NCBI GenBank assembly: GCA_015061685.1
Contig: SUWD01000001.1
Location: forward strand, 248,001-312,000
Direction of reading: 5' to 3'
Source: Lentisphaerota bacterium
GTDB taxonomy: Bacteria > Verrucomicrobiota > Lentisphaeria > Victivallales > Victivallaceae
Length of the DNA: 64,000 bases
Within the stretch, counting starts at the first letter, position 1, and the number at the start of each line of letters is the position of its first letter. Of the stretch, positions 34,044-49,699 are shown piece after piece. The notes under the pieces are model-generated. The model was not told where the DNA came from. It saw nothing but the letters and a program-made list of their open reading frames with translations, and ran no database searches. The position numbers were made by a program, and so were the translations under genes.

Positions 34044-35216
34044 ATGCTGTTAAGGGTTCTTGCTTATTTTGTTCCGTTTGCCATCAATTTTCTCAGTGGT
34101 GGATTCTTTTTTATCACCAGTTACCGCTTTGCCCGGGCGGAGTGTTCGGGGATGGTTGTAGGTTCAGCACTGACCGTTTGGGGGATCGCCTACTGTCTGG
34201 TGACCATGATCGTCGGCAAAATGGCAAGGACTGCTAATGCTCTCAAATTCATTCTTGCCGGTGGCGTGATGCTGATGATTACCGCACTCGGATTTATTAT
34301 TTTCAACGGATTATATACGCAGTTTCTTTGGCTGGCATGTGCCGGTATGGGTGCGGCAATGTTCTGCACTCCCTTTCAGCTGCTGGCGAAGTCCATTGAA
34401 TCCGGCGGCAAAGATCCCGGTACGGTCACTGCCGCATCTTTCTATACTATGACATGGAGTATCGGTGTGGCTTCCGGACCGCTGGCATTCGCCAGATTGT
34501 CTGAAACCACCGGTTTTATAATCACTTTCATTCTGGCACTTGCGATCACATTGAGTGTGATCGCTATCGCAGTAATGCGCAGCCCGGTTGACAAAAAAAG
34601 TGCGGAAAACACAGTGGTCACAAAACCGGCACGGAACTTTTCAGAAAAAGATTATGATAAACTTGCCATCCTCGGTTGGATTGTTGGCGGCTTGGGAACT
34701 TTGACGGTGTGCCAAATCCGTTCACTGTGGCCTAAACACGGTGATTTTCTGAATATTTCCAAAGATCACATCGCCTACATTCTCGCTCTGGTAAGTTACA
34801 GCCAGGCAATAACTGCTCTTTTACTTTGCCGGAGCAAATCGTGGATGTGGCGTAAACTTCCGGCATTGCTGATGACTGTTCCGGCGGTGGTTTCCTTACT
34901 GCTTTTCGCTTTTTCAAAAGATGTGTACCTTTTTTATCTGGCTGCGGCAGTCTACGGGGTTTACAGCGGATCACTCTACTTTTATCTGGTTTACCATGCT
35001 CTTTCACACCCGACCCGCAGCCGCTTCTTCGTTGCCGGTAATGAGGTTATTGTCGGCGTTGTAAATCTGATGGCGGCTATCCTCGGTGGAACGATTGTGG
35101 ATATTTCCGGGTTTACCGGTTCTCCGTTTATTTTTGCTATGATAATGGCGTTAATCGCTTTTACGGCGCAAATAATAATACTTAAGTCAGTTAGAGAGCT
35201 TGAGGAGCAAGCATGA
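34044..35216 (+). CDS. Major facilitator superfamily transporter
   Basis: A 390-aa inner-membrane protein with about 12 hydrophobic helices (for example FVPFAINFLSGGFFFITSY, FILAGGVMLMITALGFIIF, ALLMTVPAVVSLLLFAFS, VNLMAAILGGTIVDISG) and charged loop RSPVDKKSAENTV in the middle. It probably exchanges a small metabolite by proton coupling. ATG 34044 has GAGGAAG upstream. Its last four bases overlap the start of the homocysteine methyltransferase/MTHFR gene (ATGA, 35213-35216), so the two are translated together, hinting that the substrate is a methionine-cycle or one-carbon compound such as S-methylmethionine. That is inference from coupling alone. Confidence 0.8.
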   Translation: MLLRVLAYFVPFAINFLSGGFFFITSYRFARAECSGMVVGSALTVWGIAYCLVTMIVGKMARTANALKFILAGGVMLMITALGFIIFNGLYTQFLWLACAGMGAAMFCTPFQLLAKSIESGGKDPGTVTAASFYTMTWSIGVASGPLAFARLSETTGFIITFILALAITLSVIAIAVMRSPVDKKSAENTVVTKPARNFSEKDYDKLAILGWIVGGLGTLTVCQIRSLWPKHGDFLNISKDHIAYILALVSYSQAITALLLCRSKSWMWRKLPALLMTVPAVVSLLLFAFSKDVYLFYLAAAVYGVYSGSLYFYLVYHALSHPTRSRFFVAGNEVIVGVVNLMAAILGGTIVDISGFTGSPFIFAMIMALIAFTAQIIILKSVRELEEQA

Positions 35217-37024
35217 AAAACGTTGATTTGCGACAGAAATTGCAGAACGTACTGATTTTTGATGGTGGATTCGGTACGGAACTCTACCGGAGAAACTTTT
35301 TCGTCAACACCTCTTACGATGATCTCTGCCTTACTTCTCCGGAAGTGGTGGCCTCTATCCACCAATCCTATGCCGACGCCGGAGCTGAAGTGCTTACGAC
35401 CAATACTTACAATGCCAATGCCGCAGCTCTGCAGCAATTCGGCATCGCTGACCGGATGGAAAAAATCAATCAGGCGGCGGTAGCCATCGCCCGCAAAGCG
35501 GCAGCAGGAAAACCGGAAATATTGATCGCCGGTTCCATCGGCCCTGCCAAAAGCAAAATCGCCAATGCTGTCGCGGAACAGGCTGCTGTACTTCAAAATT
35601 CCGGAGCAGACTTCCTGATATTTGAATCCATTTCCGGCATGGAGGAACTCTCCACTGCGATCAATGCCGTACCCTCAAAAGATATCGCCTGGATCCCGAG
35701 TTTCGTATTGGACAGTGAGGGTAAACTTGCCGACGGCAGTGATTTCCGGATGATCACAAACGCCTTGTCCCAGGCGGGATATCCCCCTGCCGCCATCGGT
35801 TTGAATTGCGGCAACGGCCCGGAAACCACCCTCGCCGCTCTGGAAAAGATCATCCGTCAAACCACCTTGCCGGTGGTCGTCCAGCCGGGTTCAGGTGTCC
35901 CTAAAAGTGTGGATAACCGCTTCATGCAGATGACCACCCCGGAATATTTTACGACCTACTGTATGCGTTATCTCAATCTGGGGGCAAAAGGTCTGGGCGG
36001 CTGCTGCGGGATCACTCCGGCACACATTGCTGATATGGTGCGGTCATTGAAACCGCTTGCCGCCAGTGCGGAAAAAGCGATGCCGGCAGTGGAAATCAAA
36101 GAAGTTCAGGAGTTACCGGCAGTGCCGCTGGCAGAAAAGAGTTCATTCGGTTCCAAGCTTGCCAAAGGTGAATTTCTCCGGCTGATCGAGATGACTCCTC
36201 CCAAAGGCTTCGACCTCTCCGCCACTGTGGAAAAGGCAAAAATCTGCAAAGCCGCCGGGATCGATGCCATAAATATTCCCGATGGACCGCGGGCAAGCTG
36301 CCGCATTTCCCAGATCATCACCGCTATTGAGATCCAGGAAAAAGCCGGGATCGAAACCGTCGTCCACTGCTGTTCCAGAGACCGGAATCTTATCAGCCTG
36401 CAATCCATGATTTTAGGGTGTATGGCAAAGAATTTGCGGAATATCCTTTTCATTACCGGAGATCCGCCGAAACTGGGAGATTATCCATTCAGCTCCGGGG
36501 TGTTTGATGTTGATTCGATCGGCATGGTCAAATTGCAGAGCCGCCTCAACCGGGGGATCGATGCCGCCGGACTCCTGCTGGGGAATAATGTCCAAACCGC
36601 CATGGTTTCCGGCGTGGGAGCAGATCCCAATGCCATCGATCTTGACCGGGAATACCGGAGACTGGAGGAAAAAATTGCCGCCGGTGCGGAATATATCATC
36701 ACCCAGCCGGTCTTTGATCCGCCGACTTTGCTGAAGTTCCTCCGCAATGTCCGCAGTAAATTTGATATTCCGGTGATCGCCGGGGTGTGGCCCTTTGCCA
36801 GTTACCGCAATGCTCTTTTCATGAAAAATGAAGTCCCCGGCGTGATCGTGCCGGATTGGATCATGAAAGCTATGGAAAGTGCCGGAGACAAGGAAGCACA
36901 ACGGCAGGAAGGTATCCGGATCGCCCGGCAGATCCTTGCCGAAATCCGCAGCGAGATCAACGGCGTGGCAACCAGTGCCCCATTCGGCAATATCAATACG
37001 GCTCTTGCCATCTTTGAAAATTGA
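35213..37024 (+). CDS. Bifunctional homocysteine S-methyltransferase / methylenetetrahydrofolate reductase
   Basis: A 603-aa fusion like B. subtilis YitJ. Residues 1-290 form the homocysteine methyltransferase barrel: FDGGFGTELYRR, then the zinc Cys in GLNCGNGP and the double Cys in GGCCGITPAH (near 265). A linker of about 30 residues leads to the MTHFR half (about 315-603: LRLIEMTPPKGFDLSATVEKA, FITGDPPKLGDYPF, YIITQPVFDPPTLLKFL). The second half makes 5-methyltetrahydrofolate and the first transfers a methyl group to homocysteine to give methionine. Co-translated with an MFS transporter. A linked-substrate system is possible but unproven. Confidence 0.93.
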   Translation: MKNVDLRQKLQNVLIFDGGFGTELYRRNFFVNTSYDDLCLTSPEVVASIHQSYADAGAEVLTTNTYNANAAALQQFGIADRMEKINQAAVAIARKAAAGKPEILIAGSIGPAKSKIANAVAEQAAVLQNSGADFLIFESISGMEELSTAINAVPSKDIAWIPSFVLDSEGKLADGSDFRMITNALSQAGYPPAAIGLNCGNGPETTLAALEKIIRQTTLPVVVQPGSGVPKSVDNRFMQMTTPEYFTTYCMRYLNLGAKGLGGCCGITPAHIADMVRSLKPLAASAEKAMPAVEIKEVQELPAVPLAEKSSFGSKLAKGEFLRLIEMTPPKGFDLSATVEKAKICKAAGIDAINIPDGPRASCRISQIITAIEIQEKAGIETVVHCCSRDRNLISLQSMILGCMAKNLRNILFITGDPPKLGDYPFSSGVFDVDSIGMVKLQSRLNRGIDAAGLLLGNNVQTAMVSGVGADPNAIDLDREYRRLEEKIAAGAEYIITQPVFDPPTLLKFLRNVRSKFDIPVIAGVWPFASYRNALFMKNEVPGVIVPDWIMKAMESAGDKEAQRQEGIRIARQILAEIRSEINGVATSAPFGNINTALAIFEN

Positions 37025-38821: not shown

Positions 38822-40012
38822 ATGCCTGAAAATTCAACCATTTCCCCGGTGTGCTGCAGAAGCATTTCATTGTGGGGAATGACATTGCTGAAAATAAAGA
38901 AATATGAAAACCGGGAAATATTCAGTCTTTTCGGTATTCTGCCGGTATTCAGCCGTCCGGTCATAAAGGCGGATGAGAATACTTTCGTGGTTTGGGAACC
39001 GTGTTCCCGGAGCCACAGCGAAGTTGTCCCCGGCTATGCAAAATATCTGCTGGATTTGGGTTATTCGGTTTCCATCGTGGTCAAACCGGAACATTACCGC
39101 TCCGGTCTCTTTTCCCGTTTTTCTTCCGACAAACTGTTTTTCAACGTTCTCTCCCGCCGGGAGGCAAAACGTTATTTCAAACATGCAGATCTCTCCAAAT
39201 TGCAGGGAGTTATGGTAACCACTGCCGGGAAGTTGTGCGACCGGATCAATTTTGATGCGGCGTACACCCACTTCAATAAAACTCTGGACCGGAAAAAACT
39301 GTTTTTAGTGGAACATGATGCAAAATTTGCCGTCGATGCCGGGACCTGGGATGAAAATATTATAACTCTGCGTAAATTGAATTACCACGGAGCCAGATCA
39401 ACGATGGTCAATCCGCACTATTTCGGAAAGGTGCAGATCACCGGAAAAAATGATGATATCACCAATTTCATCATGGTCGGCAGACTTGGTGCCGGACAGT
39501 CAGACAATGCCGTGATCGTCGAAGCGGCAGAAAAATTGATCCGCGACGGAATAAAGAATTTCAAGATCACCGTGGTCGGGAAAGGCAGTCTGGATGAATT
39601 GCCGCCGGAATTGGCAGACCATGTCGATATCAAAGGCAGATTATCCTTTACCGATATGTTTGCCGAATTGGAAAAAGCAGATTTCATGCTGACCTCCTAT
39701 GACCGGGAGAAGCACCGCTTTTACCGCACTACCGGAGCCAGCGGCAACTTCCAATTGGTTTACGGTTTCGGCAAACCGTGTATCATCATCCGGGATTTTG
39801 CCGGGGTCAATGGTTTTACCGATGATAATTCGATCATCTACGAAAAAACGGCTGATTACGCCGATGCCATGAAAAAGGCGATTGACATGTCCGGGGAAGA
39901 ATATGCTGTCATACAGAAAAATCTTATGAATTACAGTGCGGCACTTTACGATGAATCCGGAAAAAATCTGGCAGATTTGATCGCAAGACAATCCGGAAAG
40001 GCGGCGAAATGA
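38822..40012 (+). CDS. Glycosyltransferase family 4-like protein
   Basis: A 396-aa GT-B fold protein, first gene of the surface-glycan run. The C-terminal half has NFIMVGRLGAGQSDNAVIVEAA (about 215-236), ITVVGKGSLDELPPEL and a GRLSFTDMFAELEKADFML donor-binding region, all as in GT4 enzymes. An N-terminal acceptor-binding half precedes it. Start uncertain: ATG 38822 lacks a clear ribosome site, while ATG 38879 (GGGGA only one base upstream) is also possible. Its stop overlaps the next gene's start by 4 bases. It probably adds a sugar to a lipid-linked capsule or O-antigen repeat. Confidence 0.75.
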   Translation: MPENSTISPVCCRSISLWGMTLLKIKKYENREIFSLFGILPVFSRPVIKADENTFVVWEPCSRSHSEVVPGYAKYLLDLGYSVSIVVKPEHYRSGLFSRFSSDKLFFNVLSRREAKRYFKHADLSKLQGVMVTTAGKLCDRINFDAAYTHFNKTLDRKKLFLVEHDAKFAVDAGTWDENIITLRKLNYHGARSTMVNPHYFGKVQITGKNDDITNFIMVGRLGAGQSDNAVIVEAAEKLIRDGIKNFKITVVGKGSLDELPPELADHVDIKGRLSFTDMFAELEKADFMLTSYDREKHRFYRTTGASGNFQLVYGFGKPCIIIRDFAGVNGFTDDNSIIYEKTADYADAMKKAIDMSGEEYAVIQKNLMNYSAALYDESGKNLADLIARQSGKAAK

Positions 40013-40899
40013 GTAAGATCCCGGTGGTTTTCACTTTCGATAAACGCATTATCCCGGCAAGTGCGATCGCCATAAAAAGTTTGATCGATCGTGCGAAATC
40101 TGAAACAGAATACGATATCTTTGTTTTCCATCCTGATGTGAGCGAAAAGATCATCCGGGAATTTGAAAAGATGCTTTCCGGTTCCCGGCACCATATAACT
40201 TTTACCAAAGTGGCAAAAGATAGATTCAAATCAGCTCCCAAAAGCCGGGGAAGCTGGCAGGAAGTCGTTTATTACCGGATACTTATTCCGGAGTTGCTGC
40301 CGCAGTATGACAAAGTGATCTACAGTGATGTGGACGTGCTTTTCAAAGATGATTTAAGCGAAGTATATGCCACAGATCTCGATGGTTTTGAATGGGGCGG
40401 AGTTGCTGCGGAAGTTAATTCAGCCAATGCTGTCGGGCATAAATATTTTCCGGAAAACACTCATGAGCAGATCTTCTGGAGCGGATTTATGCTGCTCAAC
40501 ACCCGGTATATGCGGGAAAACGGCTTCATTGACCGCTGCTTTGAAGTTATCAGAAAGGTCGGAGAACGGCTGAAATTCTTTGATTTGGACACCATTAATA
40601 TTGCTTCACACGGGATCAGGGAATTGCCGTTGAGATATGTTGCCCTGCAATCGCTTTTCAGATACGCTGAATTTGCCGGGATGCCGGAATATATCCATTT
40701 GAAAAATCTCTATTCTGATGCGGAGTTGTCTGCTGCCAAAGCTGATCCGGCGATAGTCCATTACGCCGGAAAACCGGGCAAACCGTGGCACTTGAAACAT
40801 CCACCGGCTGATTACCGCAAATATATGGATGAATTGCCGCAGGGATTGAGAAAATATACTTTCCGGGATCTCCGGAAAAAACTTTTCAATAAGTTTTGA
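40009..40899 (+). CDS. Glycosyltransferase family 8 protein
   Basis: A 296-aa GT-A transferase. It opens PVVFTFDKRIIPASAIAIKSL and has the DXD metal motif in VIYSDVDVLFKDDL (residues about 102-115). GFMLLNTRYMREN and a C-terminal VHYAGKPGKPWH are typical of GT8 lipopolysaccharide galactosyl/glucosyltransferases. It is translated with the preceding GT4 by a 4-base ATGA overlap. It likely adds a hexose to a surface glycan in the inner leaflet of the cytoplasmic membrane. Retaining mechanism is the family rule; donor not known. Confidence 0.88.
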   Translation: MSKIPVVFTFDKRIIPASAIAIKSLIDRAKSETEYDIFVFHPDVSEKIIREFEKMLSGSRHHITFTKVAKDRFKSAPKSRGSWQEVVYYRILIPELLPQYDKVIYSDVDVLFKDDLSEVYATDLDGFEWGGVAAEVNSANAVGHKYFPENTHEQIFWSGFMLLNTRYMRENGFIDRCFEVIRKVGERLKFFDLDTINIASHGIRELPLRYVALQSLFRYAEFAGMPEYIHLKNLYSDAELSAAKADPAIVHYAGKPGKPWHLKHPPADYRKYMDELPQGLRKYTFRDLRKKLFNKF

Positions 40900-40924
40900 T
40901 CGCTTTCAGGAAAGCAGGTTTATT

Positions 40925-41512
40925 ATGAGCATACAGCGTTTCAGACAGAAATTGATAGATCTCATCCCGGTAAGAAACTGGAGAAAGAAGCTCTCTTTCA
41001 AATATGGCTGGTTCCCTCAAAACAGCGTACAGAAAGGGGTCGTTATTTCTTCCATAAGGAAATTGAAACTCGGTGGTCATGTTTATATCGGAGCCAACGG
41101 CACAAAGTTGTGCTGTGAGGGTGGAGTGAGCATTGGTTACAACACCAAGATCGGTGAAGGATGCTTTATTCTCTCGACCAATCACAATTATTTATCGGAA
41201 ACGAGGATCCCTTACGATCATATCGGCTTGATGCAGCCGGTGGAAATCGGCAAAAATTGCTGGATCGGAGCCAGAAGTATTATCTGTCCCGGAGTGAAAA
41301 TAGAGGATGGAGCTATTGTTGCCATGGGTTCTGTTGTGACAAAATCCGTCCCCAAAGGAGCCATTGTCGGCGGCAATCCGGCAAAAATAATCAAATTCCG
41401 TGATCTGGAACTTTATGATAAACTTGAAAAAGCCGGTATGTGCTATCCGATTCCGGACGAGTTGCCCCGGGAATGGGTCAAAACTGACGGTTTCAGAAAT
41501 TATTTACAGTAA
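40925..41512 (+). CDS. Hexapeptide-repeat acyltransferase
   Basis: A 195-aa left-handed beta-helix enzyme. Hexapeptide repeats run through the middle (HVYIGANGTKLCCEGGVSIG, VEIGKNCWIGARSIICPG, VKIEDGAIVAMGSVVTKSV). The conserved active-site His lies in STNHNYL near residue 87. Such enzymes O- or N-acetylate sugars with acetyl-CoA, here probably during surface-glycan assembly given the two glycosyltransferases directly upstream (25 bp gap). The C-terminal YPIPDELPREWVKTDGF tail is unlike most short relatives. Confidence 0.85.
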   Translation: MSIQRFRQKLIDLIPVRNWRKKLSFKYGWFPQNSVQKGVVISSIRKLKLGGHVYIGANGTKLCCEGGVSIGYNTKIGEGCFILSTNHNYLSETRIPYDHIGLMQPVEIGKNCWIGARSIICPGVKIEDGAIVAMGSVVTKSVPKGAIVGGNPAKIIKFRDLELYDKLEKAGMCYPIPDELPREWVKTDGFRNYLQ

Positions 41513-41619
41513 TCGTTAAAAAAAGATCATGTTTCTGCACCAGAGGAAACGGGAGCTTAAAATTCTGCCTGACCGATCAGATATTTTACTGATAACAGAA
41601 AATCTTGATGGTGAATACG

Positions 41620-42759
41620 ATGTTTGAATGGTTGTTTAAAATAGAAGATAACTGGGTTGTGTTTTTTGATCTGTTTTCAAAAAACGGCAATGGTGATTCA
41701 ATCCGCCCGATCGCCGAAGAATTGAGAAAACAAAGACCCGATATGAAGTTTTTTTTCTGCGATAAAAGAAAAAAACGTCTGTCTCATATCGATATGGCAG
41801 ATGAAATCATTACAGAAAAAACATTAAGATTCAAATATGTTTGTTCAAAAGCCAAATATATCATTTCTCCGATGGGTTTCCCGAATAAAGGTAAAAAAAG
41901 AAACGGACAGATTTTTATTCAAACCTTTCATGGTTCACCGGTAAAAAGATGCTATCTTGCCCGTGATAATCAAAACCGGAAATACAAAAAATTTGCGAAA
42001 TTATATCGGAATACAGATATAGCATGTGCACAGAGTGAGTTTTTCAAGCCGTTGTGGATCGAAACTTACGGTTTTGAAAATCCAGTCATATTTACCCACG
42101 GTGTACCGCGGAATGATATTTTATTCACCAAAAAGAACGATATGGGGTTTATTGAAAACCTGAAAAAAGAATTGGGCTTGCCTGAAAATAAAAAAGTTAT
42201 TTTGTACTGCCCGACATGGAGAAGATATGACTATAAAGCAATATTGCCTTTTGACATGGAATACTTGAAAAAAGAATTGTCAGATAAATATGTTTTATTG
42301 ATGCGTTCCCATGTCGGAAAACATGAATGGGTCAATTCAAAACTTGAACCGGTTGACATTTTTGATAACAAATTTTGCTACAATGGTGGAGATTATCCCG
42401 AAATTACCCATCTGTACTTGATTACGGATATAATGATTTCCGATTATTCTTCTGCGATTTGGGATTTTTCAATAACCGGAAAACCGCAAATTTTGTACAC
42501 ATATGATTATGAAAGTTTCAGTACAGAATTTAAATTACACTTCAACTATCCGGAATTTTTCCCTTTCCCTCAAGTCAAAGATCAGAAAGCACTGGTTGAT
42601 TCAATCAAAAACTATCCCGATATTCAAAGTGCTTATAACGATTTTTGCGAAAAATATTTGACCTGGGAAACAGGCAAGGCAACTGAAAATTTAATGAACG
42701 AAATATTAAAATCACAGGTGAAAAATGCAAGCAGTAATTTTAGCCGCCGGGATGGGTAA
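41620..42759 (+). CDS. CDP-glycerol/TagF-like phosphotransferase
   Basis: A 379-aa protein of the CDP-glycerol:glycerophosphotransferase (TagB/TagF) family. It has the family phrases FIQTFHGSPVKR (near residue 105), ILYCPTWRRYDYKAILPF and HLYLITDIMISDYSSAIWDFS, the last carrying the catalytic-type His/Asp region. Such enzymes transfer an alditol-phosphate or similar group from a CDP-activated donor to a glycan. ATG 41620 is preferred (GGTGAA upstream); earlier TTG and ATG codons at 41605-41608 are alternatives. Its end overlaps the next gene by 35 bases. Base composition here is more AT-rich than the flanks, suggesting recent acquisition. Confidence 0.85.
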   Translation: MFEWLFKIEDNWVVFFDLFSKNGNGDSIRPIAEELRKQRPDMKFFFCDKRKKRLSHIDMADEIITEKTLRFKYVCSKAKYIISPMGFPNKGKKRNGQIFIQTFHGSPVKRCYLARDNQNRKYKKFAKLYRNTDIACAQSEFFKPLWIETYGFENPVIFTHGVPRNDILFTKKNDMGFIENLKKELGLPENKKVILYCPTWRRYDYKAILPFDMEYLKKELSDKYVLLMRSHVGKHEWVNSKLEPVDIFDNKFCYNGGDYPEITHLYLITDIMISDYSSAIWDFSITGKPQILYTYDYESFSTEFKLHFNYPEFFPFPQVKDQKALVDSIKNYPDIQSAYNDFCEKYLTWETGKATENLMNEILKSQVKNASSNFSRRDG

Positions 42760-44536
42760 AAGACTCCGTGATTTGACAGAAAATAATACGAAATGTATGG
42801 TAAAGGTCAATGAGATACCTTTGATCGACCGTATGTTGAGTATTCTTTCCGGATATGATTTGTCAAGAATCGTTATCGTCGTCGGTTATCAAGCTGAAAA
42901 TCTTAAAACCCATATTCGGTCTTTGCCATGCAGCATCCCAATTGAATTTGTCGAAAATCCGATTTATGACAAAACAAATAATATTTACTCTCTTGCTCTT
43001 GCACAACAATATTTGGCAGCAGAAGATACTGTTTTGTTGGAATCTGATCTTATATTTGAACCACGGCTGCTGGACAAAATATTGAATTCTAAAGATAAAA
43101 ATGTCGCTCTCGTTGCCAAATATGAATCATGGATGGATGGGACTGTTGTCAGACTTGATTCAAAAAACAGGATCGTAAGTTTTATCCCTAAATCCGGATT
43201 CCGTTACAGTGATATAAATACATATTATAAAACTGTCAATATTTATAAATTCAGCAAAGAGTTTTCCCGTAATTATTATATCCCTTTTTTGCAGGCTTAC
43301 ATGCAGACTCAAGGGAAGAATGAATACTACGAACAGGTTTTGCGGATATTGACATTTCTTGACCAGACAGATTTCAAGGCATTGCCGCTTGATGATGAAA
43401 AGTGGTATGAAATAGATGATGCTCAGGATTTGGATATTGCTGAAGCCATTTTTGCTGAAAACAAACAGCGTTTGACAAAATATTTCAAACGTTACGGCGG
43501 ATATTGGCGTTTCCCGCAAATGCTGGACTATTGTTATTTGGTTAATCCGTATTTTCCCCCCGACCGGATGAAGGATGAATTACGCAGCAATTTCGATGTA
43601 TTACTGACAGAATATCCATCCGGAAGCGGCATAAATAATCTTCTTGCCGGTAAATATTTTAGCATAAAGCAAAGTTTGATCGCTGTCGGCAACGGGGCTG
43701 CGGAACTTATCCGCTCTCTGATGCGTTTTACAACAGGTAAACTCGGGGTGATTTTACCGACCTTTGAAGAATATCCCAATCGTTACAACAAAGAAGATTT
43801 GGTTGTTTTCAAACCGGAAACAGATGGTTTTACATATTCTGCGGATGATTTGATGGATTTTTATGCTGATAAACAAATTTCTTCACTGCTGATAGTCAAT
43901 CCGGATAATCCATCGGGTAACTTCATTAAAATTGAAGACCTTATGCGTTTGCTATCATGGTGCAAAAGCAGGGATATCCGTATTATTATTGATGAATCAT
44001 TCGTAGATTTTTCTGATTTCAGCGAACAAACTTTACTTGTCAATCAGATTCTTGAGAATAATCCTCATCTGGTAGTAATCAAAAGTATATCAAAATCATA
44101 CGGAGTGCCGGGATTGCGTCTGGGAATCATGGCGACAGCAGATTCAGATTTACTGACGCAGGTAAAAGGTGATTTGCCTATTTGGAATATCAATTCATTC
44201 GCTGAATTTTATATGCAGATATTCAGCAAATACGAAAAATTGTATCATGAGGGGTGCAGACTTTTTTGCGAAGAACGCAAGCGGTTTAAAGCAGAACTGC
44301 AAAAAGTACCATTTCTCAAAGTATATCCGTCCCAGGCAAATTACTTCCTCTGCGAAGTCACTGGGAAATACACCTCGCCGGAGTTGACAGAAAAGCTGCT
44401 TGAACAAAATATCCTGATAAAAGACTGCAGTACCAAAGTTGCATTCGATGGCAGAAATTTTATCCGTATTGCGATCCGTAACAGACAAGATAATACGAAT
44501 CTTTGTAAAAAGCTGAACAGTTTGCCGGAGAAATAA
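42725..44536 (+). CDS. Nucleotidyltransferase-aminotransferase fusion protein
   Basis: A 603-aa two-domain enzyme. Residues 1-235 are a LicC-type nucleotidyltransferase (AVILAAGMGKRLRDLT at 3-18, ESDLIFEP as metal site near 104). Residues 265-603 form a class I PLP-dependent aminotransferase (LLIVNPDNPSGN, IIIDESFVDFS, SISKSYGVPG with the Schiff-base Lys near 457). Known members with this order belong to capsule or lipid-decoration clusters. The fusion suggests that a small amino-alcohol phosphate or aminophosphonate is made by amination, then CDP-activated and handed to the TagF-like transferase encoded just upstream. ATG 42725 has AGGTGA upstream. The exact product is unknown. Confidence 0.85.
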   Translation: MQAVILAAGMGKRLRDLTENNTKCMVKVNEIPLIDRMLSILSGYDLSRIVIVVGYQAENLKTHIRSLPCSIPIEFVENPIYDKTNNIYSLALAQQYLAAEDTVLLESDLIFEPRLLDKILNSKDKNVALVAKYESWMDGTVVRLDSKNRIVSFIPKSGFRYSDINTYYKTVNIYKFSKEFSRNYYIPFLQAYMQTQGKNEYYEQVLRILTFLDQTDFKALPLDDEKWYEIDDAQDLDIAEAIFAENKQRLTKYFKRYGGYWRFPQMLDYCYLVNPYFPPDRMKDELRSNFDVLLTEYPSGSGINNLLAGKYFSIKQSLIAVGNGAAELIRSLMRFTTGKLGVILPTFEEYPNRYNKEDLVVFKPETDGFTYSADDLMDFYADKQISSLLIVNPDNPSGNFIKIEDLMRLLSWCKSRDIRIIIDESFVDFSDFSEQTLLVNQILENNPHLVVIKSISKSYGVPGLRLGIMATADSDLLTQVKGDLPIWNINSFAEFYMQIFSKYEKLYHEGCRLFCEERKRFKAELQKVPFLKVYPSQANYFLCEVTGKYTSPELTEKLLEQNILIKDCSTKVAFDGRNFIRIAIRNRQDNTNLCKKLNSLPEK

Positions 44537-44540
44537 TATA

Positions 44541-45479
44541 ATGAAAATCATTACATTCGATACAATAAAAAAACTCAATATTTCTCCGGCTGAATGTGTT
44601 GATTGGGTAAAAAAGGTGTTTATCAATAAACAGGAAAATATACTTCATGCCAAAGACAGTATAAAACTTGACGGCAATATTTTCTTTAACACCATGCCAT
44701 GTTATTTGAAATCGGAAAAAAAAGTGGGAGTAAAAGTAGTTTCACGCTTCCCGCAAAAAATACCGGCATTAAATTCAGATCTTTTACTTTATGATGCTGA
44801 AACCGGTGATTCTCTCTGCCTGATGGATGCTACGTGGATCACAACCATGAGAACCGGAGCAGTTGCAGCATTGGCGGCATTGACTTTTAAGCATTCGAAT
44901 ACCACAACTTTTTCCTTTGTCGGTTTGGGGAACACCGCAAGAGCAACTTTGCTTTGTCTGCTCAGTCAGATACCCCCTGAAGTAAAAATAAATGTTAATT
45001 TATATGAATATAAAAATCAGGCTCATGATTTCATAGAACGTTTCAAATCATATAATAACATTATTTTCAATATTGAAGCTGATTTAAGTACGTTGATTGC
45101 CGGCAGTGATGTATTATTTTCATGCGTTACTGCATTTGACAACATTGTTGCTCCGGATGACGTTTTTCCGGAAGGTATATTGTTGATACCGGTTCATACG
45201 CGGGGATGGCAGAATTGCGATTTATTTTTTGATAAGGTTTTTGCAGATGACACAGACCATGTTCGTAACTTCAAATATTTTGACAAGTTCAAACATTTTG
45301 CTGAATTTTCCGATGTACTGAATGGCAAATCTGTTGGACGTGAAAATGATGAAGAACGAATTTTGAGTTACAACATCGGTATTGCTTTGCATGATGTTTA
45401 TTTTGCATCGCAAATATATAAAAAATGTGATTCAGCTTCTGTTGTTTTATCGTCATTAACTCAAAAGTTTTGGGTTTAA
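44541..45479 (+). CDS. Ornithine cyclodeaminase / mu-crystallin family protein
   Basis: A 312-aa NAD(P)-dependent protein. It has the family lysine in KVGVKVVSRFP (near residue 62), then DATWITTMRTGAVAALAA (near 95) and a Rossmann domain starting SFVGLGNTARATLL (about 130). Members deaminate ornithine or reduce imines and 2-oxo acids (for example alanine dehydrogenase and SbnB). It starts 4 bases after the nucleotidyltransferase-aminotransferase gene and is certainly co-transcribed, so it probably makes or consumes the amino compound for that pathway. Substrate undetermined. Confidence 0.8.
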   Translation: MKIITFDTIKKLNISPAECVDWVKKVFINKQENILHAKDSIKLDGNIFFNTMPCYLKSEKKVGVKVVSRFPQKIPALNSDLLLYDAETGDSLCLMDATWITTMRTGAVAALAALTFKHSNTTTFSFVGLGNTARATLLCLLSQIPPEVKINVNLYEYKNQAHDFIERFKSYNNIIFNIEADLSTLIAGSDVLFSCVTAFDNIVAPDDVFPEGILLIPVHTRGWQNCDLFFDKVFADDTDHVRNFKYFDKFKHFAEFSDVLNGKSVGRENDEERILSYNIGIALHDVYFASQIYKKCDSASVVLSSLTQKFWV

Positions 45480-45702: not shown

Positions 45703-46308
45703 ATGATATCTTTCAAATTTCTCAAACAATTGCTGTTGGATAAACTGAAAATTTCAGCTTATCATCGCCGGAGACGGAAATATAACATCGGTGAATACAG
45801 CTATATTTCGCATACCACCAGAATAGGAAACGCTCAAATCGGCAAATTCTGTTCCATTGCCCCCGGAGTGGCTATCGGTATCGGCAGCCATCCGACACAT
45901 ACCTTATCCACATCGCCATTCCAGTACACAAGAAATATGATAACGACCACAGGAAATATCCTGGTGGACGAAAAAAATCTGGTCAAACTGAAACCAAAAA
46001 ATACAGTCAGAATCAATAACGATGTCTATATCGGAATGAATGCTGTTATCATGCCCGGCGTAACGATCGGAAACGGTGCTGTCGTCGGCGCCGGAGCTGT
46101 GGTCACCAGAGACGTGCCCCCTTACGCCATCGTCGGCGGAGTACCGGCAAAAGTCATCAAATACCGCTTTGAACAACCGGTCATTGATAAACTGCAAAAA
46201 CTTGAATGGTGGAATTATCCGAAAGATTTTATTGTGCAGCTGCCTTTTGAAAATATCGGCAGATGTATCGAACTGCTGGAAAGCAACCAACACCTGAAAA
46301 CGATATAA
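45703..46308 (+). CDS. CatB-like hexapeptide acetyltransferase
   Basis: A 201-aa trimeric left-handed beta-helix enzyme of the xenobiotic/sugar O-acetyltransferase type. Hexapeptides begin [20 protein letters not shown], the catalytic His is in [13 protein letters not shown] (near residue 67), and a second hexapeptide block runs [20 protein letters not shown]. It probably acetylates a capsule or O-antigen sugar rather than a drug. GGAG lies 11 bases before ATG 45703, and a 223-bp AT-rich spacer with no gene separates it from the preceding one. ManC follows after 24 bp. Confidence 0.83.
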
Positions 46309-46332
46309 AATATTATATTGGAGAATACCGCA

Positions 46333-47373
46333 ATGAAAGCAATTATTTTAGCCGGCGGCAGCGGCAGCAGATTATGGCCGTTTTCCAATGACGACATCCC
46401 CAAGCAGCTCTTGAGGATCAACAGCGATTTAAGTTTGCTGCAAAACACTTTTCTGCGGCTCAATCAGCTTGTCCCGGCAGAAAATATCCTTACCGTGACC
46501 AATATCGCCTACCGGGAAAAAACCGCTTCTCAATTACAGGAAATTTCCCCCGACGGCAAGCTCCTTTGTGAACCGTGCACCAGAAATACCGCTCCGGCGA
46601 TCGCCTGTGCCATTGAATTTCTCCAAAAAGAGAATGATTCACCGGAGGATATCGTGATCATCGTCCCTGCCGATCACCTGATAAAAGATCACGCCGGTTT
46701 CAGAAAAACCCTCGAAAATGCCATCGCCATTGCCGAAAAAGATTATCTCGTCACTCTCGGCATAACCCCGGATTACCCTGAAACCGGATTCGGCTACATC
46801 AAAACTGCCGATACTTTTGACGGCGGATTCAAGGTGGAAAAATTTGTGGAAAAACCCTCGGCTGATCTGGCGGAAAAGTATGTCGCCTCCGGAAATTACT
46901 TCTGGAATGGCGGTATTTTCGTCGGCAAGATCTCCGTTTTCAAAGAGGAATTCGCCAAATCCGCTCCGGAAATCGCCAAACTTGCGGAAAAATGTTCTTT
47001 TGCTTCCGGCTTGATCGGAGAGGAAATTTTCTCGCAAATGCCCAAAATTTCCATCGACTATGCCATTATGGAGAAATCCAGCCGGATAGCTCTGGTCAAA
47101 CTCCTCTCCGATTGGAGCGATCTGGGGTCGTGGCAGGCAATATATCAGATTCATCCGCAGGATGAAAATGGCAATGTCGTCGTCGGCAGAGCGGTTCTGC
47201 ACAATGTCAGAAATTCATTGATTTATTCCCCAAACACCATGACGGCGGTTGCCGATATCGAAAACCGGGTCGTAGTCAATATCAATGGAATCAGCATGGC
47301 ATGTAATCTTTTCCAATCCCAGAATGTCAGAATTCTTTGTGAGGCAGCAGCAAAAGAAAAAATTGAAAAATAG
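46333..47373 (+). CDS. manC: Mannose-1-phosphate guanylyltransferase
   Basis: Makes GDP-mannose from GTP and mannose-1-phosphate for surface glycan synthesis. The 346-aa protein has the signature AIILAGGSGSRLWPFSNDDIPKQ (shown here by its first part, AIILAGGSGSRLWPF, at residues 3-17), PADHLIKDH (near 110), FVEKPSAD (near 165), YFWNGGIF and IDYAIMEKS. It is the GT domain alone, without the isomerase fused in two-domain relatives. ATG 46333 has GGAGAA upstream. Its stop codon TAG (47371-47373) uses the first base of a degraded MITE end. Confidence 0.93.
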   Translation: MKAIILAGGSGSRLWPFSNDDIPKQLLRINSDLSLLQNTFLRLNQLVPAENILTVTNIAYREKTASQLQEISPDGKLLCEPCTRNTAPAIACAIEFLQKENDSPEDIVIIVPADHLIKDHAGFRKTLENAIAIAEKDYLVTLGITPDYPETGFGYIKTADTFDGGFKVEKFVEKPSADLAEKYVASGNYFWNGGIFVGKISVFKEEFAKSAPEIAKLAEKCSFASGLIGEEIFSQMPKISIDYAIMEKSSRIALVKLLSDWSDLGSWQAIYQIHPQDENGNVVVGRAVLHNVRNSLIYSPNTMTAVADIENRVVVNINGISMACNLFQSQNVRILCEAAAKEKIEK

Positions 47374-47461
47374 TTATTGTCTCATTTTTTGCATTCCTGC
47401 GGTGGTGTATTGCGGCGTAGAGCAACAGAGACGGAAGGAAAGATTTCTCACAAAAAAATGA
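47373..47461 (-). mobile_element. MITE remnant, two 3' ends facing each other
   Basis: The left side reads GTTATTGTCTCATTTTTTG, with an 11-base internal loss, then CCTGCGGTGGTG; the right side reads GGAAAGATTTCTCACAAAAAAATGA. These are both copies of the same element end in opposite orientation, with the middle lost. No target duplication is visible. It lies between the manC stop and the next gene and lacks the promoter-bearing end. Confidence 0.6.
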
Positions 47462-47492
47462 AAAAAATCAAAATATAAGGAAATATAAAAAA

Positions 47493-48314
47493 ATGAAAAA
47501 AATCGGTTTTATTGATCTTTTTATTGATGAATGGCACTCCAATAACTATCCGGAGTGGTTCCGTACCGCCCCCAGAGCAGCTGAATTTGAGCTGGGTTAC
47601 GCCTGGGAAGAGGCCCCGCTGGAAGACCGCAAGCCGCTGGATGTCTGGTGCAAAGATATGCAGATGATCCCGGCAAAAAGCATTGAGGAGGTCGTGGAAA
47701 ATTCCGACTGCATCTGTGTCCTTGCCCCCTCCAGACCGGATGTGCATGAGCGTCTTGCTGAAATTCCGCTCAAATCGGGCAAGCCGGTATATATCGACAA
47801 GCCTTTTGCCGACAGTCAGGCGGCGGCGGAGAGACTTTTCGCTCTTGCCGACAGATACAATACCCCTTTGATGTCCAGTTCGGCACTGCGTTTCAACGAT
47901 CAGCTTTTAAGCGGTCAGGTCAAAGAGGTCGAACCGGTATTCATGGCTACCACCGGTGGCGGACGTTCTTTCGATGAGTACGGCATCCACCAGCTGGAGA
48001 TGATCGTTTCCGTCATGGGAACGGAGGTAAGAAATCTGAAACTTGCCGGAGATGAGCAGAAAGTCTCCCTCACTCTGGAATATGCCGACGGCCGTCTGGC
48101 ACAACTGCTTTACGCTACCAGATTCGGCTTTTCCATAACTGCCGCCGGAGAGAAAAAATCGGTCAACATCCCGGCTGTAACCAACTTTTTCCCGAATTTG
48201 ATCGCCGGAATGCTGGATTTCTTCGCTACCGGGAAAAGCCTTATCGCTCCGGAGGAGACCATCACCATCGCCGGACTGCTCGAAAAAAGTATCAATATGC
48301 TCCATAACAGATAA
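47493..48314 (+). CDS. Gfo/Idh/MocA-like NAD-binding oxidoreductase
   Basis: A 273-aa protein related to the dehydrogenase at 19633 but shorter. The opening segment GFIDLFIDEWHSNNYPEWF lacks the usual GxGxxG motif, so NAD binding is not assured. It keeps CVLAPSRPDVHERLAEI and a YIDKPFADS segment in place of the EKP motif (near 108), then a C-terminal helix-rich half. A role in sugar modification is likely from its place between manC and a nucleotide-sugar dehydrogenase, but it may be catalytically altered. AAGGAA lies 8 bases before ATG 47493. Confidence 0.65.
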   Translation: MKKIGFIDLFIDEWHSNNYPEWFRTAPRAAEFELGYAWEEAPLEDRKPLDVWCKDMQMIPAKSIEEVVENSDCICVLAPSRPDVHERLAEIPLKSGKPVYIDKPFADSQAAAERLFALADRYNTPLMSSSALRFNDQLLSGQVKEVEPVFMATTGGGRSFDEYGIHQLEMIVSVMGTEVRNLKLAGDEQKVSLTLEYADGRLAQLLYATRFGFSITAAGEKKSVNIPAVTNFFPNLIAGMLDFFATGKSLIAPEETITIAGLLEKSINMLHNR

Positions 48315-48340
48315 TATCGGCTTCCGGAGAAATCTGCCGG

Positions 48341-48369
48341 GCGGCAGCGTTTTCTGCCGCTTGATTTTA
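48341..48369 (+). terminator. Stem-loop terminator after the oxidoreductase gene
   Basis: GCGGCAG-CGTTTT-CTGCCGC (7-bp stem) then TTGATTTTA. It overlaps the -35 box (48361-48366) of the next gene's promoter. Confidence 0.6.
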
Positions 48370-48389
48370 TCCGGCAACTGATATATATT
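48361..48389 (+). promoter_or_regulatory. Sigma70 promoter of the nucleotide-sugar dehydrogenase gene
   Basis: TTGATT (48361-48366), 17 bp, TATATT (48384-48389), 23 bp before ATG 48413, with GGAGG as ribosome site. Confidence 0.65.
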
Positions 48390-48412
48390 ATAGGGAAATA
48401 CATGGAGGATAT

Positions 48413-49699
48413 ATGCTGGATAAGTTGAAAAGCGGCAAAATCAAACTTGCCGTTATCGGATTGGGATATGTCGGACTGCCGCTGGCAGTGGAATTCGGTA
48501 AGAAATTTGATACCGTGGGTTTTGATGTCAAAACTTCCCGGCTCGATATGCTGCGTGCCGGCAGAGATGAAACTCTGGAAACCTCCCCCGAAGATCTGAA
48601 GCTTGCCGTCAATCTGCGTTATTCCGATGACCTTGCCGATCTGACCGACCGGGATATATTCATCGTAACGGTGCCGACGCCGGTGGATCGTTACAACCGC
48701 CCCGATCTCACGCCGCTTTACCGGGCCAGCGAAACTGTCGGCAAGGTGATGAAAAAAAATTGCATCGTCATCTATGAAAGCACCGTTTACCCCGGTTGTA
48801 CGGAGGAAGATTGCGTGCCGGTATTGGAGAAATTCAGCAATTTGACCTTTAACCGGGATTTCTTTTGCGGTTACAGCCCCGAAAGGATCAATCCCGGCGA
48901 TAAACAGCACACCCTTTTGCAGACGGTGAAAATCACTTCCGGATCGACCCCGGAAACCGCCGAAATCGTCGATCAGCTCTATAATTCCATCCTGCAGTCA
49001 GGAACTCACAAAGCCTCCTGTATCAAGGTCGCTGAAGCCGCCAAAGTCATCGAAAATTCCCAGCGGGATCTCAATATCGCATTCGTCAATGAATTGGCAA
49101 AGATCTTTCACCTGATCGGCATTGATACCAATGATGTCCTCGAAGCCGCCGGTACCAAGTGGAATTTTATGAAATTCAAACCCGGTCTGGTCGGCGGACA
49201 CTGCATCGGTGTCGATCCCTACTACCTTACCCACAAGGCACAAGCTCTGGGCTATCTGCCCGAAGTCATTCTCGCCGGACGCCGGATCAACGACGGCATG
49301 GGAAAATATGTTGCCGGTGAGATCGTCAAAAAAATGATCAAAAAAGGTAAAACCGTCCTGGGAGCAAAAGTCCTCCAGCTGGGAATAACTTTCAAGGAAA
49401 ACTGCCCGGATATCCGCAACAGCAGAGCGGTGGACGTGATCGAAGGATTGAAAGAATTCGGCTGCGAAACCATCGTACTTGACCCGTGGGCAAATCCGGA
49501 CGAGGTGAAGAAAGCCTACGGAATTGATTCGGTGAAAAACTTCTCCGACCTCAAGGAGAGTAATTACGATGCCGTGATTCTGGCGGTGCCTCATCGGGAG
49601 TTCCGGAATTTCAACCGGGATGAACTGGATTTGAAAGACGCTGTCGTTTACGATATAAAAGGCTTCCTGCCCCGGGAAATGACCGACGGCAGATTGTAA
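48413..49699 (+). CDS. Nucleotide-sugar dehydrogenase (WbpO/TviB-like)
   Basis: Oxidises UDP-N-acetyl-hexosamine to the uronic acid using NAD twice; 428 aa. It has the Rossmann motif VIGLGYVGLP (residues 13-22), YSPERINPGDK (near 163), the catalytic Cys in GGHCIGVDPYY (Cys near residue 264), and the family GITFKENCPDIRNSR (near 325). It belongs to the UDP-GalNAc dehydrogenase-like branch seen in Vi antigen and O-antigen clusters. It follows manC in the glycan run but has its own promoter, so it can be expressed alone. Confidence 0.88.
   Translation: MLDKLKSGKIKLAVIGLGYVGLPLAVEFGKKFDTVGFDVKTSRLDMLRAGRDETLETSPEDLKLAVNLRYSDDLADLTDRDIFIVTVPTPVDRYNRPDLTPLYRASETVGKVMKKNCIVIYESTVYPGCTEEDCVPVLEKFSNLTFNRDFFCGYSPERINPGDKQHTLLQTVKITSGSTPETAEIVDQLYNSILQSGTHKASCIKVAEAAKVIENSQRDLNIAFVNELAKIFHLIGIDTNDVLEAAGTKWNFMKFKPGLVGGHCIGVDPYYLTHKAQALGYLPEVILAGRRINDGMGKYVAGEIVKKMIKKGKTVLGAKVLQLGITFKENCPDIRNSRAVDVIEGLKEFGCETIVLDPWANPDEVKKAYGIDSVKNFSDLKESNYDAVILAVPHREFRNFNRDELDLKDAVVYDIKGFLPREMTDGRL

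Follow-up and report, generated by a model that had tools for sequence, protein, structure and literature searches.

The phosphocholine decoration of surface glycans in Streptococcus, Haemophilus and Proteus O18 depends on imported choline and a kinase, on activation with cytidine triphosphate (CTP) by LicC and on transfer by LicD. In Treponema denticola, PntC, which makes cytidine monophosphate-2-aminoethylphosphonate, is a cytidylyltransferase fused to a pyridoxal phosphate (PLP) enzyme, a class V transaminase. Other PLP enzymes, CobD and SMUL_1544, serve cobamide synthesis, and opine synthases that use NADH to couple an amine with pyruvate are found both in the ornithine cyclodeaminase (OCD) family, with the tauropine dehydrogenase of a sponge, and in the octopine dehydrogenase (ODH) family (PF02317). 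We describe here three consecutive + strand genes of a Lentisphaerota bacterium (contig SUWD01000001.1), lying in an analysed stretch of 64,000 nucleotides that we call the window, in which relatives of several of these enzymes are combined: a TagF-like cytidine diphosphate (CDP)-alcohol phosphotransferase (41605-42759), a fusion of a LicC/PntC-like cytidylyltransferase with a CobD-type PLP domain (42725-44536), and an oxidoreductase of the OCD/mu-crystallin family (44541-45479). Open reading frame calls, Pfam and NCBIfam bear out these three adjoining genes and their families, already recognised in a first-pass annotation of the DNA. A 35-base overlap between the first two genes and a 4-base gap between the last two give the trio an operon-like arrangement; the TagF-like gene starts with TTG at 41605, and the annotation had placed its ATG at 41620. 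We propose that the trio represents a horizontally moving cassette that would make N-substituted ethanolamine phosphate for surface glycans, a scheme which, taken in full, we consider to have an even chance of being right.

The most interesting part of these observations is the exchange of two dehydrogenase families at one place, directly after the fusion gene. A scan of genome contigs gave 385 fusion-related stretches, from which 80 loci were kept (81 including the window), mainly from Bacteroidales and Clostridia, and the conservation of the neighbours in other genomes, on which the first-pass annotation had staked its idea, was indeed found. The gene directly downstream of the fusion encodes an ODH-family protein in 38 loci and an OCD in 16; within six genes of the fusion, 40 of the 81 loci carry ODH alone, 20 OCD alone, one both and 20 neither. 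The lone locus with both genes (L013) is also the nearest relative of the window. This mutual exclusivity gives a Fisher p of 4e-7, a value that ignores the relatedness of the loci; weightier is the count on the fusion tree, where at least 17 OCD/ODH changes are required among the fusions carrying either. One pair of loci (L065 and L092), with 97.6% identity between the fusions and orthologous genes on the flanks, differs solely in whether OCD or ODH comes directly after the fusion; in another (L024 and L026) the fusions are 82.6% identical and the syntenic loci differ just in this gene. No sequence similarity was detected between the two families. The dehydrogenase is the most constant neighbour of the fusion, found beside it in Bacteroidales, Clostridia and Akkermansia among very different glycan genes (alignments of unrelated neighbour proteins were used solely for counting families), and the two genes mostly overlap or lie a few bases apart (medians -2.5 and +4). 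AlaDh_PNT was considered as a third opine family for this slot and rejected, its gene in locus L082 sitting at +2 behind an ODH gene. Culturable carriers include Parabacteroides gordonii with OCD, and Parabacteroides distasonis An897 and Olivibacter domesticus with ODH.

What both families are established to do is reduce, with NAD(P)H, a C=N bond that adjoins a carboxylate, and opine synthases occur in each. Octopine dehydrogenase joins pyruvate to arginine (PMC2924402), members of the OCD superfamily act on ketimines of alpha-amino acids (PMC4113996), and an OCD homologue, the tauropine dehydrogenase of sponges, is an opine synthase that uses pyruvate and taurine, a 2-aminoethyl acid (PMC4113996; PMC3840593). 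In the cassette ODHs, H193, R295 and D300, equivalent to His212, Arg324 and Asp329 of octopine dehydrogenase, are each kept by 90% or more of 42 copies. K65 and R104 are retained throughout, or almost throughout, the 21 cassette OCDs, and in this family the Lys/Arg pair binds the carboxylate of the imine. A carboxylate is lacking in amino-alcohol phosphates and would have to come from a keto acid; by analogy with these relatives, the slot enzyme (PF02423, 2.3e-26, in the window) is predicted to be an opine-type dehydrogenase condensing an amine with an alpha-keto acid. Unlike tauropine and octopine dehydrogenases, the cassette enzymes, which belong to gut and rumen bacteria, would take a glycan precursor, either ethanolamine phosphate or CDP-ethanolamine, as their substrate. 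The first-pass annotation had given the OCD protein a role in providing or recycling the amino group; this role fits poorly with a slot that is equally filled by relatives of octopine dehydrogenase, both families containing enzymes that join amines to alpha-keto acids, and the ODH family is not known for amino-group recycling. The cassette OCDs (in the window, 44541-45479) also have in common H219, N225-C226-D227, R69 and H240, which may be phosphate or diphosphate binders.

The fusion is one protein of 603 residues with the domains PF12804 and PF00155. As its architecture of about 600 residues is repeated at 55-66% identity in the 80 kept loci and its AlphaFold model reaches a mean confidence (pLDDT) of 90.6 over the whole chain, the fusion is genuine. 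The N-terminal domain (42725-43477; NTP_transf_3, PF12804, 5.6e-13) has S. pneumoniae LicC (1jyk, 6.5e-14) and T. denticola PntC (6pd1, 1.5e-11) as best matches in the PDB, and it shows the PF12804 fold, the LicC-like motifs and the acidic amine-holding residues of LicC/PntC-type enzymes. In PntC the primary amine of the substrate is contacted by Glu104 and Glu196, whose LicC counterparts are Asp105 and Asp192 (PMC6697681). E106 of the fusion is aligned to PntC Glu104, and E203 to LicC position 192 in a weak alignment, the PntC alignment being one residue off there; both glutamates are invariant across 28 relatives. Glutamate at the amine-contact positions favours a small amine over choline as the substrate. 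With its LicC/PntC relatives, E106 and the adjoining CDP-alcohol transferase, the likely product is a CDP-activated small amino-alcohol phosphate for glycans, as the first-pass annotation had anticipated.

The same annotation was right in recognising a LicC-like nucleotidyltransferase fused to a PLP enzyme; its label of class I aminotransferase fits less well, though transamination keeps some probability. The C-terminal domain (43478-44536; Aminotran_1_2, PF00155, 2.1e-30), with K457 as the PLP lysine by alignment, scores 178.8 bits against the CobD profile and 134.5 bits against HisC, both under the equivalog cut-off. The cut-off of the CobD equivalog (TIGR01140) is 290.55 bits, and SMUL_1544, annotated as a phosphoserine decarboxylase, also falls below it with 174.2 bits; on its sequence the domain would be of CobD type, and we do not file it as CobD itself. 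SMUL_1544 is its top match in the PDB (2.6e-43); the sequence lies on a Sulfurospirillum plasmid, is annotated as a norcobamide serine-O-phosphate decarboxylase and was proposed from a proteomic study to make ethanolamine phosphate (PMC4585668). A maximum-likelihood tree groups the fusion, its rhizobial relatives and SMUL_1544 (support 100/98); CobD is the sister group, and HisC falls outside. Structural alignment of the whole fusion chain, which says nothing separate on the nucleotidyltransferase domain, ranks CobD (Z 38.0) before SMUL_1544 (36.0) and HisC (up to 35.6). The margin for CobD and SMUL_1544 over HisC is large in profile and tree and small in fold. By sequence and model, the domain appears nearer to the phosphothreonine/phosphoserine decarboxylases than to the histidinol-phosphate aminotransferases, and a decarboxylase acting on O-phospho-L-serine is predicted.

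The model that we propose builds on the observed gene order, domain identities, conservation and dehydrogenase exchange; its substrates, keto acid, acceptor and order of steps are predictions, as is every enzymatic step. The CobD-type domain would decarboxylate O-phospho-L-serine, provided by SerC, to ethanolamine phosphate, which the LicC/PntC-like domain would convert with CTP to CDP-ethanolamine. In the next step the OCD protein, or ODH elsewhere, would couple the free amino group to an alpha-keto acid, for example pyruvate, by NAD(P)H-dependent reduction, and the small opine CDP-N-(carboxyalkyl)ethanolamine would result; N-substitution could also precede cytidylylation. Finally, the phospho-opine would be moved to the glycan by the TagF-like protein or, elsewhere, mostly by LicD. 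The cassette would differ from the LicC/LicD system in that the fused PLP domain apparently synthesises the amino alcohol de novo, in the added opine-type dehydrogenase and, in the window, in a TagF-like enzyme in the stead of LicD. It differs from PntC in a PLP domain of CobD type (class I/II), and from SMUL_1544 and CobD, the nearest characterised relatives of that domain, in that the domain is joined to a cytidylyltransferase, lies in glycan clusters and would not serve cobamide synthesis. The C. jejuni capsule offers a further parallel, in that PLP enzymes supply the amines of a surface glycan, Cj1436 reportedly making ethanolamine phosphate and Cj1437 serinol phosphate; there, however, the amine forms an amide with a uronic acid, its phosphate is taken off, and neither a cytidylyltransferase nor an opine enzyme takes part.

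Near the fusion, LicD is found in 46 of the 81 loci, a TagF-like protein in 13 and both in 2 (exclusivity p=0.001). The TagF-like protein of the window has the Glyphos_transf domain PF04464 only (8e-69) and scores 169 bits against the TarF equivalog, whose cut-off is 550. Its gene is the sole PF04464 gene of the genome, in which neither LicD nor TagD was found; no alternative donor or transferase is present there. CDP-glycerol was considered as the donor and is unlikely in a genome without TagD. We predict that the protein takes the modified phosphoethanolamine off its CDP carrier and attaches it to the glycan. At locus L086 a TagF-domain protein, the fusion and OCD follow in the same order as in the window; the first of these (L086:7263-9959) is an 899-residue frame with a YidC-like (60KD_IMP) part and then a TagF-like part, directly before the fusion and OCD genes.

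SerC is present in the window's genome, and a gene for the supply of phosphoserine may be suggested by two isolated four-gene cassettes, DUF1015-licD-fusion-ODH (L033:7939-12828 and L044:1196-6184), with no other glycan genes around. DUF1015 also follows the fusion in Fusobacterium vincentii, and it occurs in 104 of 119 genomes of the class, including that of the window, there at a different place. Its few matches in the PDB are weak and headed by an archaeal free serine kinase, with which it has a DGHHR motif in common (E 0.012 with a single sequence, 0.06-0.95 with a profile); as a phosphoserine supply gene it is suggestive only.

Three other explanations have to be weighed against an N-substituted ethanolamine phosphate. 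The PLP domain could aminate dihydroxyacetone phosphate (DHAP) to serinol phosphate, or a similar carbonyl phosphate, so that CDP-serinol would be made and transferred by the TagF-like enzyme while OCD recycled the amino donor, as the first-pass annotation had it. The Pfam fold is that of class I/II aminotransferases, and transamination of DHAP to serinol phosphate for the capsule is established in Campylobacter (Cj1437); CobD and phosphoserine decarboxylase nevertheless rank first by sequence, tree and structure, and the exchange of OCD for ODH is hard to square with amino recycling. We consider DHAP amination unlikely, and two of the three chemical steps first put forward are probably incorrect. 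A pathway in which plain phosphoethanolamine, or phosphoaminopropanol, is the decoration, while OCD or ODH works on an unrelated precursor of that glycan, be it a sugar or an amino acid, is given as little credence. The loci lacking both dehydrogenases speak for it, and a gene directly after the fusion at L074 (11996-14752) encodes a protein with choline-binding repeats, which hints at a surface bearing amino-alcohol phosphates, where the decoration may anchor surface proteins; the tight coupling and constancy of the dehydrogenase among very different glycan genes speak against it. Least probable by far is a phosphonate pathway, in which the fusion would be a PntC-like CMP-2-aminoethylphosphonate (AEP) synthase whose transaminase is of class I where that of PntC is of class V. 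The two-part layout is that of PntC, but the first-pass suggestion of a phosphonate was rejected for the window's genome, in which, at 93.75% completeness, no phosphoenolpyruvate (PEP) mutase was found. A strong match to PF13714 (PEP mutase) is present in just 7 of 50 fusion genomes and lacking in 43, and at least one of the seven (a 306-residue frame in G219) may be another member of the superfamily.

Yet phosphonate genes do adjoin some relatives of the fusion. On a Clostridia contig (L066:19-3639), pepM, cut by the contig end, the phosphonopyruvate decarboxylase gene ppd and the fusion stand in a row, the one phosphonate-linked member among the 80 loci. This arrangement would need a transaminase and suggests that this member aminates phosphonoacetaldehyde, a point in favour of both the DHAP and the phosphonate explanations. 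Rhizobial plasmids (L099:4753-8737 and L100:3747-8221) carry pepM with LicC-like and CobD-like genes, ppd not being nearby, and L100 also has an aspartate-aminotransferase-like gene, which suggests a route from phosphonopyruvate to phosphonoalanine and, by decarboxylation, to AEP; these plasmids, too, speak for the phosphonate explanation. From L066 and these plasmids, the fusion family may hold members of differing chemistry. Several further points weigh against the opine scheme. The 20 of 81 loci without either dehydrogenase indicate that N-substitution is not obligatory, and the carboxylate-bearing imine that is reduced could belong to a molecule other than the amino alcohol. The structural gap between CobD and HisC is just 2-3 Z units; the PLP-domain tree has long branches and a single usable HisC row, HisC_L131 having dropped out, and it was built without the DHAP transaminase Cj1437, the key rival relative. 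The link of DUF1015 to serine kinase is statistically weak and seen in two lineages.

The surroundings of the trio are those of a glycan cluster. Upstream on the + strand (38822-41512), Pfam identifies a group-1 (GT4-like) glycosyltransferase, a GT8 glycosyltransferase and a hexapeptide acetyltransferase; downstream, within 45703-49699 of the same strand, Pfam and NCBIfam identify a hexapeptide acetyltransferase, a mannose-1-phosphate guanylyltransferase-like protein and a GFO/IDH oxidoreductase, and the last glycan gene (48413-49699, + strand) is nucleotide-sugar dehydrogenase-like from its translation read by eye. The G+C content is 36.5-37.6% at 42-46 kb and about 45-50% in the flanking DNA. 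Of 198 genomes of the class just 2 contain the fusion, and it was found in none of the other listed genomes of the same genus; this distribution and the AT-rich stretch make it probable that the window's genome acquired the fusion, and they point to a recent gain. Further upstream (35213-37024), the translation reads as a homocysteine S-methyltransferase fused to methylenetetrahydrofolate reductase, a fusion type already known. Other settings of the fusion were also seen. In Gloeothece, an S-adenosylmethionine methyltransferase gene lies between the fusion and licD, and its product is a possible alternative N-modifier. On a Rahnella sikkimica plasmid (L097), a distant fusion adjoins a CDP-alcohol phosphatidyltransferase gene, and its CDP-amino alcohol might be destined for lipid; on pBM700 of Priestia megaterium (L098), another lies beside two ATP-grasp ligases and a homologue of 1-deoxy-xylulose-5-phosphate reductoisomerase, a set that might be a small cluster for a natural product, self-resistance gene included.

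A residue of the kind predicted here, 2-[(R)-1-carboxyethylamino]ethyl phosphate, is said to occur in the O-antigen of Proteus mirabilis O14. The main text of a paper on Proteus O-antigen clusters does not describe genes for it, and a literature search gave nothing useful on this residue or on the combination of a phosphoserine decarboxylase with a cytidylyltransferase. In its widest form, our proposal is that of a mobile surface decoration widespread among gut and rumen bacteria, with CDP-ethanolamine converted to a CDP-opine by either of two unrelated dehydrogenase families that repeatedly take each other's place, perhaps yielding two epitopes; we hold this to be quite possible, if a little short of an even chance. 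The two epitopes would perhaps be of opposite configuration at the new carbon, or derive from different keto acids. Such a pathway would explain genetically how bacterial glycans come to bear opine-like phosphate groups, and it would be an ethanolamine counterpart, derived from phosphoserine, of the phosphocholine decoration. That two unrelated enzyme families have repeatedly replaced each other in place offers a strong natural experiment on the function of the dehydrogenase step.

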